Below, one piece after another: positions 1,796 to 10,057 of a stretch of DNA of 64,000 nucleotides; positions within the stretch are counted from its first letter, which is position 1; every line of letters starts with the position of its first letter. Below the pieces are notes generated by a model. The model did no database searches. It worked only from the letters and a program-made list of their open reading frames with translations, and was not told the origin of the DNA. The stretch is from Chryseosolibacter indicum (GTDB taxonomy: Bacteria; Bacteroidota; Bacteroidia; Cytophagales; Cyclobacteriaceae): the NCBI RefSeq assembly GCF_018598585.1, contig NZ_JAHESD010000018.1:1-64000 (forward strand). The letters are read 5' to 3'. A program made the translations under genes and the position numbers.

Positions 1796-3252
1796 TAGTG
1801 AATAACTTTACCAAACAATGTAGCACCTGTACATTCTTCAACCAATACGTTAACATACTGGCCTTTCGTATAGTTTTCCGCAGGGAAAATAACTACTTTG
1901 TTTGCTGTGTTTCTACCTTGTAAGTGTAAGTCAGAACGCTTTGAAACGCCCTCAATTAACACCTTATGTATTTTACCAATGTCTCTTTTGTTTCGCTGAA
2001 GAGAATGCGCTGTTTGCTTTTGTATGATCTCATTGAGGCGGCGTTTTTTCACGTCAAGAGAGATATCGTCCGCAAATTTTTTCTCTGCCAGGGTACCAGG
2101 TCTTTCTGAATAATAGAACATGTAGGCAAAGTCGTACTGAACTAAATCCATAAGCGATAAGGTTTCCGCATGTTCCTCTTCTGTTTCAGAACAAAAACCT
2201 GTTATCATGTCTGATGAAATACCGCAGTCTTCTCCCAGAATTTCTCTTATTCTGCTTATTTTTTCGAGATACCATTCTCTTGAATAACCCCTGTTCATTA
2301 AATCAAGAATACGTGTATTCCCACTTTGAACAGGAAGGTGAATGTATTTGCAGATGTTTTCATACTTTGCCATGGTATGCAAAACATCATCTGTAATATC
2401 TTTAGGATGAGAGGTTGAGAAACGGACTCTCAGTTCAGGGCTCACTTCAGCCACCATCGACAGGAGCATGGCAAAATTGATGATGTTGCTACTGCCATTT
2501 TTCTCAAGACGTGCTTTATTGTTTTCATCAGGGCTCCATTTATAGGAGTCTACATTCTGTCCGAGAAGCGTTACCTCTTTGTAGCCCCTTTCGAAAAGAT
2601 TTTTTGCTTCTGCCACTACCGAATAAGGGTCGCGGCTTCTTTCTCTTCCCCGGGTAAACGGTACAACGCAAAAAGAACACATGTTGTCACAGCCCCTCAT
2701 GATAGAGATAAACGCTGTAACACCATTTGAATTAAGGCGCACCGGACTTATATCTGCATAGGTTTCCTCACGAGACAAAAAGGTATTAATTGCCTTTTCA
2801 CCTTCGTCAACCTGCGAAATTAACTTTGGTAAATCCCGATATGCGTCCGGTCCTGCTACCAAGTCAACTATTTTCTCTTCTTCAAGAAGCTTCGACTTAA
2901 GTCTTTCGGCCATGCAACCCAAAATACCAACCAGCAACTCGGGTTTATGTTTCTTTAGGCCATTAATATGATTAAGCCTGTTCCTTACTGTTAACTCTGC
3001 CTTTTCCCTGATAGAACAGGTATTAAGTAAAACAACATCAGCCTTTGTAATTTCGGAAGTTGTATCAAAACCTTCCTTTGAAAGAATTGAAGCAACAATC
3101 TCACTGTCAGAGAAATTCATCTGACATCCGTAACTTTCTATATAAAGCTTTCGCAGTTTTCCGGTGTTCTTTTCCTCTGTTACCTTAAAAGTCTCGCAGT
3201 TGCTGTTTGCATCCTCACTTAAAATACCAATATCTTCAATTAGCTTTTCCAT
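1795..3252 (-). CDS. miaB: tRNA-2-methylthio-N6-dimethylallyladenosine synthase MiaB
   Basis: A 485-residue radical-SAM methylthiotransferase that converts i6A37 to ms2i6A37 in tRNAs reading UNN codons. The N-terminal UPF0004 domain carries the three auxiliary-cluster cysteines (C43 in YGCQMN, C79 in NTCSIR, C113 in LGCMAE). The radical-SAM CxxxCxxC is at C188/C192/C195 ([14 protein letters not shown]), followed by [13 protein letters not shown] domain forms the C-terminus. The first 33 or so residues are an acidic extension before the conserved domain; the only upstream ATG consistent with the family is the one used. First gene of the miaB / sigma-54 activator / lptE unit. Confidence 0.97.
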
Positions 3253-5334: not shown

Positions 5335-8300
5335 GTGGGTTTTATTAAAGGGCAATCTCAGGAGCAGAAGCAGATTATTCTCATGCTGGCTACTGGTTTC
5401 TTTATGGGAGCGTTCATAGCTACCTACCAGGTAACTGCAGATTCACTTTTCTTAAATAGACTTGGCAGTGAATTAAACAAAGCATTTCTTGTATCCGGTG
5501 CATTAGGAATAGTTACTACAGGTTTATTTTCCTTTTTTCAGAGCCGTGTTAAGTTTACAACCCTTGTACTTAGCAGTGTCTTGCTGATATTCGTATTCTC
5601 TCTGGGTGCATACATGTTATTGGAATTTGGAGGTAAGCAGTGGCACAATGCTTATATCTTCGCGTTATATTGTATGTCTGGCCCATTAACAGCCATACTC
5701 TTACTGAGCTTCTGGGGCTTGTTTGGTCGTCTGTTTAATTTCAGGCAGTCAAAACGTATTATCGGGTGGATTGATACCGGCCAGCTAATTGCTGCAATTC
5801 TGGCCACCCTTATAGTTATACCTTTTACCTCTGAAGTGATAAAGAATACAACGAAGTACTTATTACTTTGCAGCGTAAGCATATTCATTGTTTCCATTTT
5901 ATTAATAATAATCTCATCTATTTTCAATGTTTCTAAAAATAATCCCAGAGAATTTGGAAAAGAAGTAAGAAAAGCTTCAAGGCTTACTAAGATTATTAAA
6001 GACAAGTACATTCTATTGCTATCGCTGTTCCTGCTAATTTCTATGACCACCTTCATGTTGGGACAGTACTCATTTCAAAACCTTGTTCAAGAACAGTATC
6101 CTAACGAAAGAGATTTGACCACGTTCAATTCCTTTGTCACCGGTGCTGTTTATGGCCTTAGTCTCATTATGCAGACATTCATAAACAACAGGATAATTAC
6201 CACCTATGGTATTCGTATAGCATTATTTATACTTCCCATTATTGTAGGGACTTTTGCTACTGGGGCTTTGATAATGGGATCAGTATTGGGATTCGACAAA
6301 CAAACATCGCCTGCTGGCTTTATTTACTTTTTCCTTTTTATTACGATCACCCGTCTGTTTAACTGGACTTTACGTGATTCACTAGAGAACCCCGTATTTA
6401 AACTTCTGTTTATCCCGTTAGATAATCGGATAAGATTTAATATTCAATCTAAAGTAGAAGGTCTTGTAAATGAATCTTCACGATTTGTAGCTGGAATTTT
6501 AATTTTTGTTCTGGCGTATGTTTCTTCCCTTACGGTCATTCATTTCACTGTACTTCTTCTTATACTGGTGGCCGCTTATTTTTTGGTGGTTAATAAATTG
6601 TACATCGGTTACCGGAATAGAATTCATGAGAAGCTTGAAAGCTCTACTGAATTTGTTCAGGACAAACTCGACAAAGGCTTTCGTCAGATAAGTGTTAAGC
6701 TCGAAAAGATGTTGCAGGAAAAGAGGGAAGGTAAAGCAGTATTTTCATTTAGGTTGTTGGAGAAAATTAATACAGGCAATACGACGACATTAATTAATAA
6801 TTTAATAAAGAACGAAGATGCAGCCGTGCGACATTACGCGCAAGAGAAATTGAATGAGATGAAGGGACTTTCCGTATCAGATAGGTATGTAATAAAGATG
6901 GACCCTGAGAAGGTGATCGACGAAAAGAATGTACTTTCAAATCTTGATATACAACTCATTCTTGAGAACGGAGGCGATATAACCAAAACCAGAATACAAC
7001 GCCTCGCCCGGTCAGCAGATGCCAATGACAGACATTATGCTGCCGAGCTTCTGTTACATGCTGAAAGAGAACTGGGTTCTATATTTCTCATGGAGCTGTT
7101 AACAGATATTGAACCCAAGGTGCGGATAACTGCTATAAAGACTTCTATTAAACATTTCACGCCTGAAATAATTAACCAGCTCATTGATAACCTTAGTAAT
7201 CCAATATACAGTAGCCAGGCAATGAATGCGCTTGTGCAAATAGGGGAGACTGTACTAAGCGCACTTGATACTGCGTTTTACCGGAGCGGGCAGCATACGC
7301 AAGCTATGCTACGCATTGTTCAAACAATGGGAAGAATTGGCGGACAGCGTGTTAAAGAATTGCTCTGGAATAAGATAGATTATCCGAACAAGCTTGTTGT
7401 GTCTCAGGTATTACTTTCTCTGGGAGAGTCTGGTTTTAAGGCAGGCATTTCTCAGATTACTCGTATTAAACACGCGATAGAAGCAGATATAGCTGACATT
7501 CGTTGGAATTTAAGTGCCATACAGGAGATAGCAAATGAAGGAATTGCTCGTGATATAAGAAAAGCATTGCGTTGGGAGATAGCAAACGATATTGAACACA
7601 TATACATGCTTCTTGCCATGCTGTATGATACCCGTTCCATACAACTTGTTAAGGAAAATATTGATAGTGGTACAGCAGATGGTGTTACTTATGCTATAGA
7701 GCTGCTCGATGTTTTCCTTTCTGAACAGTTAAAACAAAGGGTAATCCCTGTACTCGACGATCTGTCGGACCAGGACAGGATTAACAGGCTCGATCATTTT
7801 TATCCCAGGGTGCGATTGGATCCAAAATTAGTATTAAAATTTATTATCAATAGAGACTTTACACAAGCAAACCGGTGGACTAAAGCATGTATAATTCATC
7901 AGATAGGATTGTTAAAGATGAATGATTTTAAGCTAGACCTTATTGCTCAGCTTTACAATCCTGATCCTTTGATCAAAGAAATATCTGCACGATCACTTTA
8001 TGAATTAAACCCTGACGATTATTACGAAAACACAAGACGGCTAGGTGAGGAACAAAGAAGAGAACTGGATGAGCTCATCTTATTATCCAGCAGAATGTTA
8101 AGATTTGATAAAGTATCGTTTTTTCAGGATCGGTCCATTTTTAATCGTGTTGCTGGCATTACGCTTTCTTACCTTGCCGACATTAGCGAAGAATTTACTT
8201 TAAAGGATGGTGAGACTTTAATTCTTGATGATCGCTTAAATAATAATTTTTACCTTGTAATTAAAGGTTCCATTAATTTCTTCCAGCACGGGCGTCTGGT

Positions 8301-8478
8301 TTCTGGTTATAATAGTGGCCAGTTTATAGGAGAGATGCTTGCCGTTCCTGCTTTCGTAAATACAAGTATACTTATAGCTTCTACCGATTCAACAGTTCTT
8401 AAATTCAATAAAGATCAGTTCTATGAGTTGCTTGCCGATAATGCAAACCTTGCTGACAAGGTTATTGAACTTATTTAA
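5335..8478 (+). CDS. NTT/ATP-ADP-translocase-like transporter fused to HEAT repeats and a cyclic-nucleotide-binding domain
   Basis: 1047 residues, GTG start. Residues about 15-430 form some 11-12 membrane helices with the layout of the Npt1/Npt2 (nucleotide transporter-like) branch of the major facilitator fold. Residues about 490-880 are helical pairs typical of HEAT repeats (for example DAAVRHYAQEKL, EPKVRITAIKTSI, DPLIKEISARSLYEL). The last 140 residues (about 905-1047) match a cNMP-binding beta-roll: LKDGETLILDDRLNNNFYLV, a hairpin, then GQFIGEMLAVPAF at the phosphate-binding cassette position. The cassette lacks the Arg of the canonical RTA motif, so nucleotide binding may be altered. 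Cytoplasmic HEAT and roll domains probably regulate the membrane part. Transported substrate is unknown; nucleotide exchange should not be assumed. Confidence 0.82.
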   Translation: MGFIKGQSQEQKQIILMLATGFFMGAFIATYQVTADSLFLNRLGSELNKAFLVSGALGIVTTGLFSFFQSRVKFTTLVLSSVLLIFVFSLGAYMLLEFGGKQWHNAYIFALYCMSGPLTAILLLSFWGLFGRLFNFRQSKRIIGWIDTGQLIAAILATLIVIPFTSEVIKNTTKYLLLCSVSIFIVSILLIIISSIFNVSKNNPREFGKEVRKASRLTKIIKDKYILLLSLFLLISMTTFMLGQYSFQNLVQEQYPNERDLTTFNSFVTGAVYGLSLIMQTFINNRIITTYGIRIALFILPIIVGTFATGALIMGSVLGFDKQTSPAGFIYFFLFITITRLFNWTLRDSLENPVFKLLFIPLDNRIRFNIQSKVEGLVNESSRFVAGILIFVLAYVSSLTVIHFTVLLLILVAAYFLVVNKLYIGYRNRIHEKLESSTEFVQDKLDKGFRQISVKLEKMLQEKREGKAVFSFRLLEKINTGNTTTLINNLIKNEDAAVRHYAQEKLNEMKGLSVSDRYVIKMDPEKVIDEKNVLSNLDIQLILENGGDITKTRIQRLARSADANDRHYAAELLLHAERELGSIFLMELLTDIEPKVRITAIKTSIKHFTPEIINQLIDNLSNPIYSSQAMNALVQIGETVLSALDTAFYRSGQHTQAMLRIVQTMGRIGGQRVKELLWNKIDYPNKLVVSQVLLSLGESGFKAGISQITRIKHAIEADIADIRWNLSAIQEIANEGIARDIRKALRWEIANDIEHIYMLLAMLYDTRSIQLVKENIDSGTADGVTYAIELLDVFLSEQLKQRVIPVLDDLSDQDRINRLDHFYPRVRLDPKLVLKFIINRDFTQANRWTKACIIHQIGLLKMNDFKLDLIAQLYNPDPLIKEISARSLYELNPDDYYENTRRLGEEQRRELDELILLSSRMLRFDKVSFFQDRSIFNRVAGITLSYLADISEEFTLKDGETLILDDRLNNNFYLVIKGSINFFQHGRLVSGYNSGQFIGEMLAVPAFVNTSILIASTDSTVLKFNKDQFYELLADNANLADKVIELI

Positions 8479-8558: not shown

Positions 8559-8741
8559 ATGACTAAATCAAAAAAGATATTTATTGCAATCGCTATACTT
8601 TTCCTTATCCTGCTTTTTTATGCGAGCTATGATATCGGATCAAGAACAACTTTTCCCGGATCAAAATCACAATTGAAGGAAAGGATTAAGAAGAATTATG
8701 TCAACGAAGATTCCCTTTCCAATCAAGACTCTATTCGTTAG
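8559..8741 (+). CDS. Small single-pass membrane protein
   Basis: 60 residues: a Lys-rich N-terminus (MTKSKKIF), one strongly hydrophobic helix (about 7-23), then a polar, positively charged tail (KSQLKERIKKNY) ending in an acidic segment. Orientation by the positive-inside rule is ambiguous. Function unknown. It is supported as a real gene by its own good promoter (8511-8539) and the clean signal-anchor architecture. It could be a signal-anchored periplasmic peptide. Confidence 0.65.
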   Translation: MTKSKKIFIAIAILFLILLFYASYDIGSRTTFPGSKSQLKERIKKNYVNEDSLSNQDSIR

Positions 8742-8770: not shown

Positions 8771-8800
8771 TTGTGGTATTAAATAATTGTTATAGATTTG
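8771..8800 (+). promoter_or_regulatory. Promoter of candidate small RNA 1
   Basis: TTG at 8771-8773, spacer of exactly 19, TAGATTTG at 8793-8800: a complete Bacteroidota promoter. No open reading frame follows; the conserved RNA repeat starts 3 bp after the -7 box. Confidence 0.65.
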
Positions 8801-8803
8801 AAG

Positions 8804-8870
8804 AAGATTAAAGCCAACTATAGACACGAAAAATCCCCCTTTGTCGAGAACTCAGGGGGATTTTTCTTTT
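8804..8870 (+). ncRNA. Candidate small RNA 1 of a tandem pair
   Basis: About 66 nt from the predicted start to the T-run. The first 23 bases (8804-8826) are identical to those of a second copy at 8983-9005. Then comes a 13-bp hairpin (8828-8840 with 8854-8866, core ATCCCCCT / AGGGGGAT, 13-nt loop containing GTCGAGAACT) and a TTTT tail, i.e. a built-in terminator. Preceded immediately by a full promoter. No coding potential. A simple terminator for the upstream gene would not explain the conserved 5' segment or the promoter. Confidence 0.6.
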
Positions 8871-8970
8871 GTATAAGTACGTGTTTATGTTTTTCATCTG
8901 TAATGGCCGCAGTTTAACTTCTCCTATTTCCGATAGTCGATACTTGTGTGCATGATTAACGGTCCCCATA

Positions 8971-8978
8971 TATCTTTG
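8971..8978 (+). promoter_or_regulatory. -7 box of candidate small RNA 2
   Basis: TATCTTTG matches TAnnTTTG exactly and sits 4 bp before the second repeat copy, mirroring copy 1. The nearest TTG (8944-8946) leaves a 24-bp spacer, longer than usual. Confidence 0.5.
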
Positions 8979-8982
8979 ATTC

Positions 8983-9050
8983 AAGATTAAAGCCAACTAT
9001 AGACAATGATTATCCCCCGTCGTCAAGGACTTCGGGGGATTTTCAATTTT
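8983..9050 (+). ncRNA. Candidate small RNA 2 of a tandem pair
   Basis: Same architecture as the copy 179 bp upstream: an identical 23-base 5' segment (8983-9005), then a hairpin (ATCCCCCG 9012-9019 / CGGGGGAT 9033-9040, 13-nt loop) and a T-rich tail. Relative to copy 1 the closing base pair of the loop has changed from T-A to G-C, with both sides altered, which indicates selection for the structure. The loop is the same length in both and shares GTC-AGRACT. Ends about 100 bp before the cytochrome lipoprotein gene and is separated from it by its own terminator. Confidence 0.6.
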
Positions 9051-9149
9051 ATACCCTTCCATAGTTTTGTCTCCTATTGCGTGACGCGACATCTTCATCT
9101 ACGTTTAAACATCCTTCCAATCTTTGTATAACACTTATTAATCCAGTTT

Positions 9150-9515
9150 ATGCAAAGACTTAAAATTTCAATAACAGCAGCTATAGTAGTGCTGGTTATA
9201 CTAACAGCCGGATCATGTTCCAATGATGATCTTGAAAAAATGGAAGATAAAACTTGTAGCGACGAAATAAGCTATGCAAGTGATGTCAACACAATCGTTC
9301 AAACAAAATGTGCTGTTTCTGGTTGTCATAACGGATCTTTAGGCCCGCAACGTGACTGGACTAATTTTGGTACGTTTCAATCAAGGGCACAAGCGGTAAA
9401 GCAATCAGTAGTCACTCGGCAAATGCCTCCCGCGGGAAGTCCTGTGGGGCAGCTTACAGATGACCAGATCCAAACTATTTCTTGTTGGGTAGATCAGGGA
9501 GCTAAAAACAATTAA
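9150..9515 (+). CDS. Lipoprotein c-type cytochrome-like protein with CX4CH heme motif
   Basis: 121 residues with a lipoprotein signal (LTAGSC, Cys23). The heme-binding motif is CAVSGCH (C54-H60), a CX4CH variant of the usual CX2CH; a Met-Pro-Pro at about 92 can supply the distal Met ligand. Two further cysteines (36 and 112) could form a disulfide. The protein is therefore a small membrane-anchored periplasmic electron carrier or sensor. First gene of a run with two YceI paralogues and a DUF5777 barrel, which suggests a periplasmic redox or lipid-binding role for the cluster. Its stop lies 2 bp before the next start. Confidence 0.78.
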   Translation: MQRLKISITAAIVVLVILTAGSCSNDDLEKMEDKTCSDEISYASDVNTIVQTKCAVSGCHNGSLGPQRDWTNFGTFQSRAQAVKQSVVTRQMPPAGSPVGQLTDDQIQTISCWVDQGAKNN

Positions 9516-9517
9516 TC

Positions 9518-10057
9518 TTGAAAAAGAAAATTCAACTAGTTGTCTATTTGGCCCTGGCTTGTAGTGCTGTACAGGCGCAGAAGTTTGTTTCTGAAAAGAA
9601 CTCAATATCTTTTTTCTCAGACGCGGCCATTGAAGATATAGCAGCCGTTAATAACAAGTGCTCCAGTATTTTTAATGCTGCTACTGGTGATATTGTATTC
9701 TCTGTTCCTATAAACGGTTTTGAGTTTGAAAAGTCTTTAATGCAGGAACACTTTAATGAAAAGTACATGGAGTCTGATAAATATCCTAAGTCAACTTTTC
9801 AGGGAGCCATTGCAGGTTTTGACATCTCAAAAAAGGAGATTCAAAATGTTAGCGCTTCAGGGAAATTAACTATCCATGGTGTTACTAAAGACTTAACAAT
9901 ACCAGGAACGATACAACAACAAGGAGACAAGCTTTTGCTGAAGGCAAAATTTGTAGTAAAGCTTGTCGATTATAAGATCACCATTCCTCAATTACTATGG
10001 CAAAATATAGCTGAACAGGTAGACGTAACTATTGATTTTACCTTTAAACCCCAATAA
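9518..10057 (+). CDS. YceI-family periplasmic protein (copy 1)
   Basis: 179 residues, TTG start 2 bp after the cytochrome stop, so coupled translation is likely. Signal peptide ends near VQAQ (about residue 20). The lipocalin-like YceI domain is complete: FVSEKNSISFFSD, FNEKYMESDKYPKSTFQG and GKLTIHGVTKDLTIPG. YceI proteins bind long isoprenoid or other lipids in a beta-barrel. It is a clear paralogue of the next gene, and both retain the signature segments. Confidence 0.9.
   Translation: MKKKIQLVVYLALACSAVQAQKFVSEKNSISFFSDAAIEDIAAVNNKCSSIFNAATGDIVFSVPINGFEFEKSLMQEHFNEKYMESDKYPKSTFQGAIAGFDISKKEIQNVSASGKLTIHGVTKDLTIPGTIQQQGDKLLLKAKFVVKLVDYKITIPQLLWQNIAEQVDVTIDFTFKPQ

Follow-up and report, generated by a model that had tools for sequence, protein, structure and literature searches.

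The stretch of DNA analysed here, 64,000 nt of contig NZ_JAHESD010000018.1 from Chryseosolibacter indicum (the 64-kb window), carries two tandem units, A and B, between a short open reading frame (ORF) and a small cytochrome-c-like lipoprotein gene (Table 1). As judged from their sequence, these units look like members of an undescribed family of small RNAs (sRNAs), of a known kind rather than a new kind. The 61-nt units (8804-8864 and 8983-9043) are 82% identical at a spacing of 179 bp, and their first 23 nt (8804-8826 and 8983-9005) are fully identical. With up to three mismatches allowed, this 23-mer occurred at just these two places in the window and not at all in 100 shuffles; across the 5.8-Mb assembly (183 contigs) only these two copies were found. 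A box of the type TAnnTTTG precedes the segment by 3 nt in unit A and by 4 nt in unit B, and each segment is followed by a GC-rich hairpin with a T tail. Both hairpins fold strongly (-21.7 kcal/mol, z -4.4, for unit A and -21.9 kcal/mol, z -4.0, for unit B), and between them a U-A pair above five C-G pairs is exchanged for G-C, with both bases changed. Spacing, identical segment, boxes, hairpins with T tails and the pair exchange (given there as T-A to G-C) had all been pointed out in a preliminary description of the locus, and sequence comparison and folding recovered each of them.

The opposite strand folds about as well (-24.2 in unit A, -21.8 in unit B), so that the strand, like transcription itself, is deduced from the promoter box, the T tail and conservation. 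In unit B no TTG lies 17-21 nt before the box, the nearest one upstream being at 24 nt, and the -33 element of this unit is thus weak. Neither unit contains a + strand ORF of at least 60 aa, and the start-like codons, a TTG in unit A (8841) and an ATG in unit B (9006), are not kept across the aligned units. By this ORF scan the units appear not to be protein-coding, a very short peptide being possible for unit B alone.

Table 1. Features of the sRNA locus and its neighbours in the 64-kb window.
Feature	Position	Strand	Basis
60-aa ORF, one apparent membrane span, MTKSKKIF...YDIGSRTTFPGSKSQLKERI	8559..8741	+	Context, upstream of units
Putative -33 TTG, unit A promoter	8771..8773	+	Sequence reading; 19 nt before -7 box
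-7 box TAGATTTG, unit A	8793..8800	+	3 nt ahead of 23-nt segment
Predicted sRNA, unit A, ~66 nt	8804..8870	+	Covariance model R1 match 8805-8874, 79.9 bits; fold
Conserved unpaired 5' core, unit A	8804..8826	+	Same letters as unit B
Terminator-like hairpin, unit A, apical GUCGAGAAC, then T tail	8828..8866	+	Fold, pair counts, apical class
-7 box TATCTTTG, unit B	8971..8978	+	4 nt ahead of 23-nt segment
Predicted sRNA, unit B, ~66 nt	8983..9048	+	Covariance model R1 match 8984-9053, 88.6 bits
Conserved unpaired 5' core, unit B	8983..9005	+	Same letters as unit A
Terminator-like hairpin, unit B, C[AAG]G triloop, then T tail	9007..9045	+	Fold, apical class
Small cytochrome-c-like lipoprotein gene	9150..9515	+	NCBIfam match far below cut-off
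YceI-family gene	9518..10057	+	PF04264

Relatives of the units were collected by pattern and by covariance model (CM) searches. With up to three mismatches, the core was found in 38 of 196 genomes of the host's GTDB family, some of these being single coding matches, compared with 2 of 196 for a reversed-pattern control. The exact core was present in 14 contigs of genome_contigs, mostly metagenome assemblies, and the genera carrying it include Chryseolinea (Cytophagales, Fulvivirgaceae in the NCBI taxonomy), Ohtaekwangia, Dawidia, Parachryseolinea, Pseudochryseolinea and Chryseosolibacter, among others. A CM (R1) built from 50 related units gave matches (E <=0.001) in 123 of 390 genomes of the family, with 19 of 84 genera represented. 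Minus seven single matches with E values of 5.8e-5 to 9.3e-4, 116 genomes in 14 genera remain, which were accepted on score, their units being read individually in part. The CM search that the preliminary description had proposed returned relatives with the core, the promoter box and compensatory stem changes, and the family suspected there within Cytophagales takes shape as many loci sharing the same 5' segment within one Cytophagales family.

Of the 116 genomes, 50 have a single copy, 41 have two, 11 have three and 14 have between 4 and 12. All 14 genomes of the last class belong to genus g37, and single-copy genomes were mainly those of genus g18 (46 of its 55); the highest number obtained by pattern search, 13, came from a genome of g37 (G185). 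Large samples were searched with stricter filters, so that weak relatives may have gone unnoticed. R1 matched 15 of 291 genomes of the order, three of them beyond the GTDB family, and 5 of 395 genomes of the phylum, one of these being a weak match beyond the family (G771, uncounted). Outside the family, the matches in G404, G432 and G305 lacked the full core on reading and were taken as terminators with chance similarity, that in G404 (E 9.2e-6) being the least clear. Among weak matches inside the family, the singletons in G054, G075, G115, G171, G851 and G925 were excluded from the counts, and the match in G348 keeps ATAAAGCCAACTA. Rows L004, L026, L028, L060 and L061 were dropped as coding or chance matches; the T-run filter, along with the L004 row, also removed three real units (in L006, L007 and L045).

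The promoter signals are kept across the family. TAnnTTTG, with at least five of six matches and 0-6 nt before the core, was found at 111 of 120 units vs 22 of 120 in an upstream control window of equal width, and 56 of 120 units had a TTG 17-21 nt upstream of the box, with 12.7 expected from shuffled upstream sequence; these statistics cover 120 of 124 units after removal of duplicates, and the units are related by descent, so the counts are not independent. In Flavobacterium the consensus box occupies -12 to -5 (PMC9723704); counted from there, transcription would begin at about 8804-8805 in unit A and 8983 in unit B. The promoter type appears to be that of the Bacteroidota primary sigma factor, the sigma factor itself being what we infer from the box. 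The earlier claim that the units have promoters and terminators of their own agrees with the frequency of the box among relatives, and with own promoter, own intrinsic terminator and conserved sequence and structure the units would have the features by which sRNA genes are recognised.

The hairpin and the core differ in what they tell. In the model-fitted alignment of 109 distinct units, 98.4% of the cells were paired compared with 81.6% in shuffles, double-sided changes occurred in all 11 of 11 pairs, and the covariation score reached 0.516, compared with 0.189 for shuffles and no more than 0.120 for slid controls. RNAalifold, run on a MAFFT alignment, likewise reported a compensatory change in 10 of 11 pairs. 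The pair exchange between units A and B had been read as an argument for structural selection; compensatory stem changes are indeed found family-wide, but they show only that a terminator is kept, and any kept intrinsic terminator gives such covariation, which alone is no proof of a trans-acting structure. Stronger signs are the unpaired conserved core and the conserved apical loops. The inner 17 nt of the core are intact in 98 of the 109 distinct units, with one change in seven and two in four, and the stems vary. Among 52 loci, 36 tandem pairs spaced 166-190 bp were found. The apex of the first unit reads GUCGNGNAC in 32 of these 36 pairs, and in those 32 the second unit carries a C[NAG]G triloop (27 pairs) or GUAGRYGA (five pairs, genus g34). 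In genus g37, all units whose apex was read had C[NAG]G.

With Rfam 15, no match at gathering score was obtained anywhere in the window. A permissive Rfam search (E <=5, 451 bases) gave 14 matches, all below gathering score and none of them FopS, which were dismissed as terminator look-alikes or chance; the comparison with Rfam suggested in the preliminary description thus yielded no credible family match. In the literature searched, the text of a 14-nt core in three spellings was not found, nor were Cytophagales, sRNA and transcription start sites found together, and Chryseolinea and small RNA co-occurred only in what is, by its title, a rhizosphere study. The main texts of two papers on genome-wide non-coding RNA discovery, supplements and subscription papers aside, did not contain Bacteroidetes, Bacteroidota, Cytophag-, Chryseolinea or Flavobacter-.

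The closest architectural analogue is FopS. In PMC11697453, FopS is described as a paralogous sRNA family of Bacteroides thetaiotaomicron, a species that also has GibS; it is present in 12-15 copies per genome, spread over several loci, represses susC translation by pairing and is bound by the RRM-1 protein RbpB. FopS resembles the units predicted here in its conserved unpaired 5' segment followed by an intrinsic terminator hairpin, in its several copies and in a primary-sigma-type promoter (TAnnTTTG) directly upstream, and FopS and GibS come from the same phylum, Bacteroidota. In contrast to FopS, copy number in the present family is mostly one to three per genome and the core shows no preference for susC start regions. 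No sequence relation to FopS was detected by the Rfam scan, which may not have included a FopS model and was the only comparison made for this, and the CM matches in the phylum sample were limited to the GTDB family plus one weak match. The Rfp sRNAs of Flavobacterium psychrophilum, e.g. Rfp18, are reported in PMC9723704 as conserved stand-alone transcripts newly found by transcriptomics, with a median length of 176 bp, and pairing by Rfp18 is predicted for its third stem-loop. By description they are similar stand-alone conserved Bacteroidota sRNAs; Rfp18, however, would pair through this stem-loop and not through an unpaired 5' end as in the units studied here. Sibling sRNAs named in PMC11697453 are OmrA/B, Qrr and LhrC. 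Like the units, these are sister sRNAs whose repeated copies share a segment; they differ in being families of other phyla, any relation having been tested through the Rfam scan only. Some of these sRNAs from other phyla are Hfq-dependent.

We consider it fairly probable (about 0.6) that the locus encodes two paralogous, independently transcribed sRNAs of ~66 nt that pair in trans with mRNAs. Regulatory sRNAs of this length had been proposed in the preliminary description, a reading that the sequence supports, with the action in trans as its conditional part. Going by the conserved signals, transcription of each RNA would begin 3-4 nt downstream of a -7 box of Bacteroidota type and stop at the RNA's own intrinsic terminator. 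The conserved unpaired 5' segment ATTAAAGCCAACTATAGACA would be the working part, most likely by base-pairing in trans close to the translation starts of several mRNAs. The hairpin is expected to act as terminator and as protection of the 3' end, and a protein may bind at its conserved apical loop; additional copies would raise dosage or allow separate promoter control. The host genome gave three RRM-1 protein matches and no Hfq match, and because Hfq was not found, an RRM-1 RNA-binding protein may be suggested as a helper in pairing.

Several results weigh against this interpretation. A generic scan found no terminator-like site and three sigma-70-type promoter sites, with 3.0 expected; such a scan is presumably ill-suited to Bacteroidota promoters or to mismatched stems. 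Conservation of the core (98/109) is partly built in, since the search for relatives used either the core or a core-containing model; but the pattern search tolerated up to three mismatches, and in G107, found by the model and missed by the pattern, the core keeps 17/17 and 16/17. When 14 family genomes were searched for long antisense matches with a wobble-tolerant 17-mer and one mismatch, 31 places other than the units were found vs 19 with the reversed control, a small excess, and no target-strand gene recurred among the 31 places, as judged by eye with no homology search. Nineteen of these places fall within the longest frame of the sRNA-sense strand, and the complement precedes the first ATG of a target-strand frame in L130 (by 57 nt), L141 (by 93 nt) and L146 (by 29 nt). 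The 17-mer scan of the host genome gave only the two units and three places with one mismatch, ribosomal RNA not being searched as such.

Tests against gene starts likewise spoke little for pairing. At 30 of 57 susC starts the core reached a mean duplex energy of -8.18 compared with -8.72 for shuffled cores, 0.9 of the shuffles being at least as good; in the control, 30 of 124 response-regulator starts, the values were -8.96 and -8.80, with 0.365 of the shuffles at least as good. Simple duplex energies were used in the susC test, and the start codons were chosen by rule, a few being apparently wrong (far upstream of the domain). At the starts of neighbouring genes, shuffled cores were at least as good in a fraction of 0.275 for the small upstream ORF, 0.04 for the cytochrome-like gene and 0.945 for the YceI gene. 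The cytochrome-like gene was not accepted as a local target, as the value of 0.04 was obtained in one of three groups and the pairing site moves between species. Moreover, 20 conserved bases are more than a short seed needs, so that a role for a protein or another ligand is conceivable.

Pairing in trans is nonetheless the most likely mode of action, and its main rival is titration, in which the sRNAs would bind a protein (e.g. of the RRM-1 type) via the 5' segment and the apical loop and not pair with mRNAs. The intact 17-nt core in most distinct units, an apical motif conserved in two main classes, amplification of copy number in one genus, the failure to see a recurring antisense site and the three RRM-1 matches would all suit such a role. 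FopS, on the other hand, represses by pairing though it is bound by RbpB (PMC11697453), so that protein binding need not be the function, and we regard titration as rather unlikely. Only tentatively, as possible but not favoured, do we put forward a bolder proposal, a lineage-wide, Hfq-independent global regulator of Cytophagales that acts by dosage, with copy number tuned between 1 and 13 per genome. A single dedicated RNA-binding protein or ligand would recognise its conserved 20-nt 5' end and make a second contact at the C[NAG]G or GUCGNGNAC apex, and ordinary multi-target seed pairing would not be its mode.

The units could also act in cis, as attenuators or leaders for the gene downstream or as terminators for the ORF upstream, since in many loci they are flanked by the small ORF on one side and a cytochrome-like or YceI gene on the other, and in the window ~105 bp separate the end of the second hairpin from the cytochrome-like gene. 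The presence of an own promoter box at 111 of 120 units, downstream genes that differ or run convergently elsewhere (L021-L023, L052) and arrays away from the window-type locus make this improbable, and a read-through terminator needs no conserved 20-nt unpaired core. Near-identical copies arrayed in one genus would agree with repetitive DNA, similar to repetitive extragenic palindromes or miniature inverted-repeat transposable elements, spread by a mobile element. Such an origin is most improbable: the host genome has only two copies, at a place kept across several genera, the exact core was not found in viral contigs, positions 8771-9050 gave no blastn match in plasmids and phages (E <=0.01), and covariation together with promoter conservation points to an RNA gene.

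As sRNA genes, the units would constitute a defined and easily tracked family with sister copies and a ready CM. Members are present in strains under DSM numbers, Ohtaekwangia koreensis and Chryseolinea serpens, and with them post-transcriptional control, RRM-protein partners and copy-number evolution would become testable outside Bacteroides.

Regarding the genomic setting, a 60-65-aa ORF with one apparent membrane span precedes the unit or pair in at least 28 of 55 scanned loci, a count that is too low, as the ORF picker took a wrong overlapping frame in several loci, and not independent, as loci L032-L045 partly repeat other genomes in the set. This ORF carries the motif YDIS.RTTFPGSK; its copy in the window had no Pfam or NCBIfam match, and matches to it (E <=1e-4) were obtained in 53 of 148 genomes of the order. 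Reading of 14 of 30 small-ORF loci included six from genera g83, g79 and g58, in which another reading frame, judged by eye, follows directly. Genomes of these three genera gave no CM match in the order sample; the small ORF is thus present without the RNA, which either arose on one branch or was lost on others. The downstream neighbour is often the cytochrome-c-like lipoprotein gene (25 rows) or a YceI gene, and in other genomes a transporter or sigma-factor-like gene, the names being read from the sequences.

In genus g37 the copies are partly grouped by two to five at a spacing of 262-308 bp, with further loci too. At L046 (G185) and L047 (G142), nine near-identical units each were arranged in groups of 3+4+2 and 5+4, respectively, with similar promoter regions; the genes beside these arrays look like glycoside hydrolase genes. 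Single copies at a different conserved place, with a convergent downstream gene that we take to be sugar-kinase-like, were seen at L021, L022, L023 and L052, and the gene on the other side of the unit has, by the match at L021, a domain resembling the SusC N-terminus. L003 has two divergent sister units (1794-1867 and 2118-2192, minus strand) whose core is shifted, AAAGCCAACTGTTAGAC, and whose hairpin differs, possibly a subfamily that model R1 scores poorly. L003, which has three copies, was dropped from the model alignment A2 due to MAFFT misalignment, though it is a divergent member; genome G019 carries three divergent copies, two of them with AAAGCCAACTGTTAGAC. Further upstream in the window (5335-8478) lies the gene for a 1047-aa protein with HEAT repeats and a C-terminal cyclic nucleotide-binding (cNMP-binding) domain, a relative of which is found upstream of the units in nearer relatives; its N-terminal half is, we assume, transporter-like.
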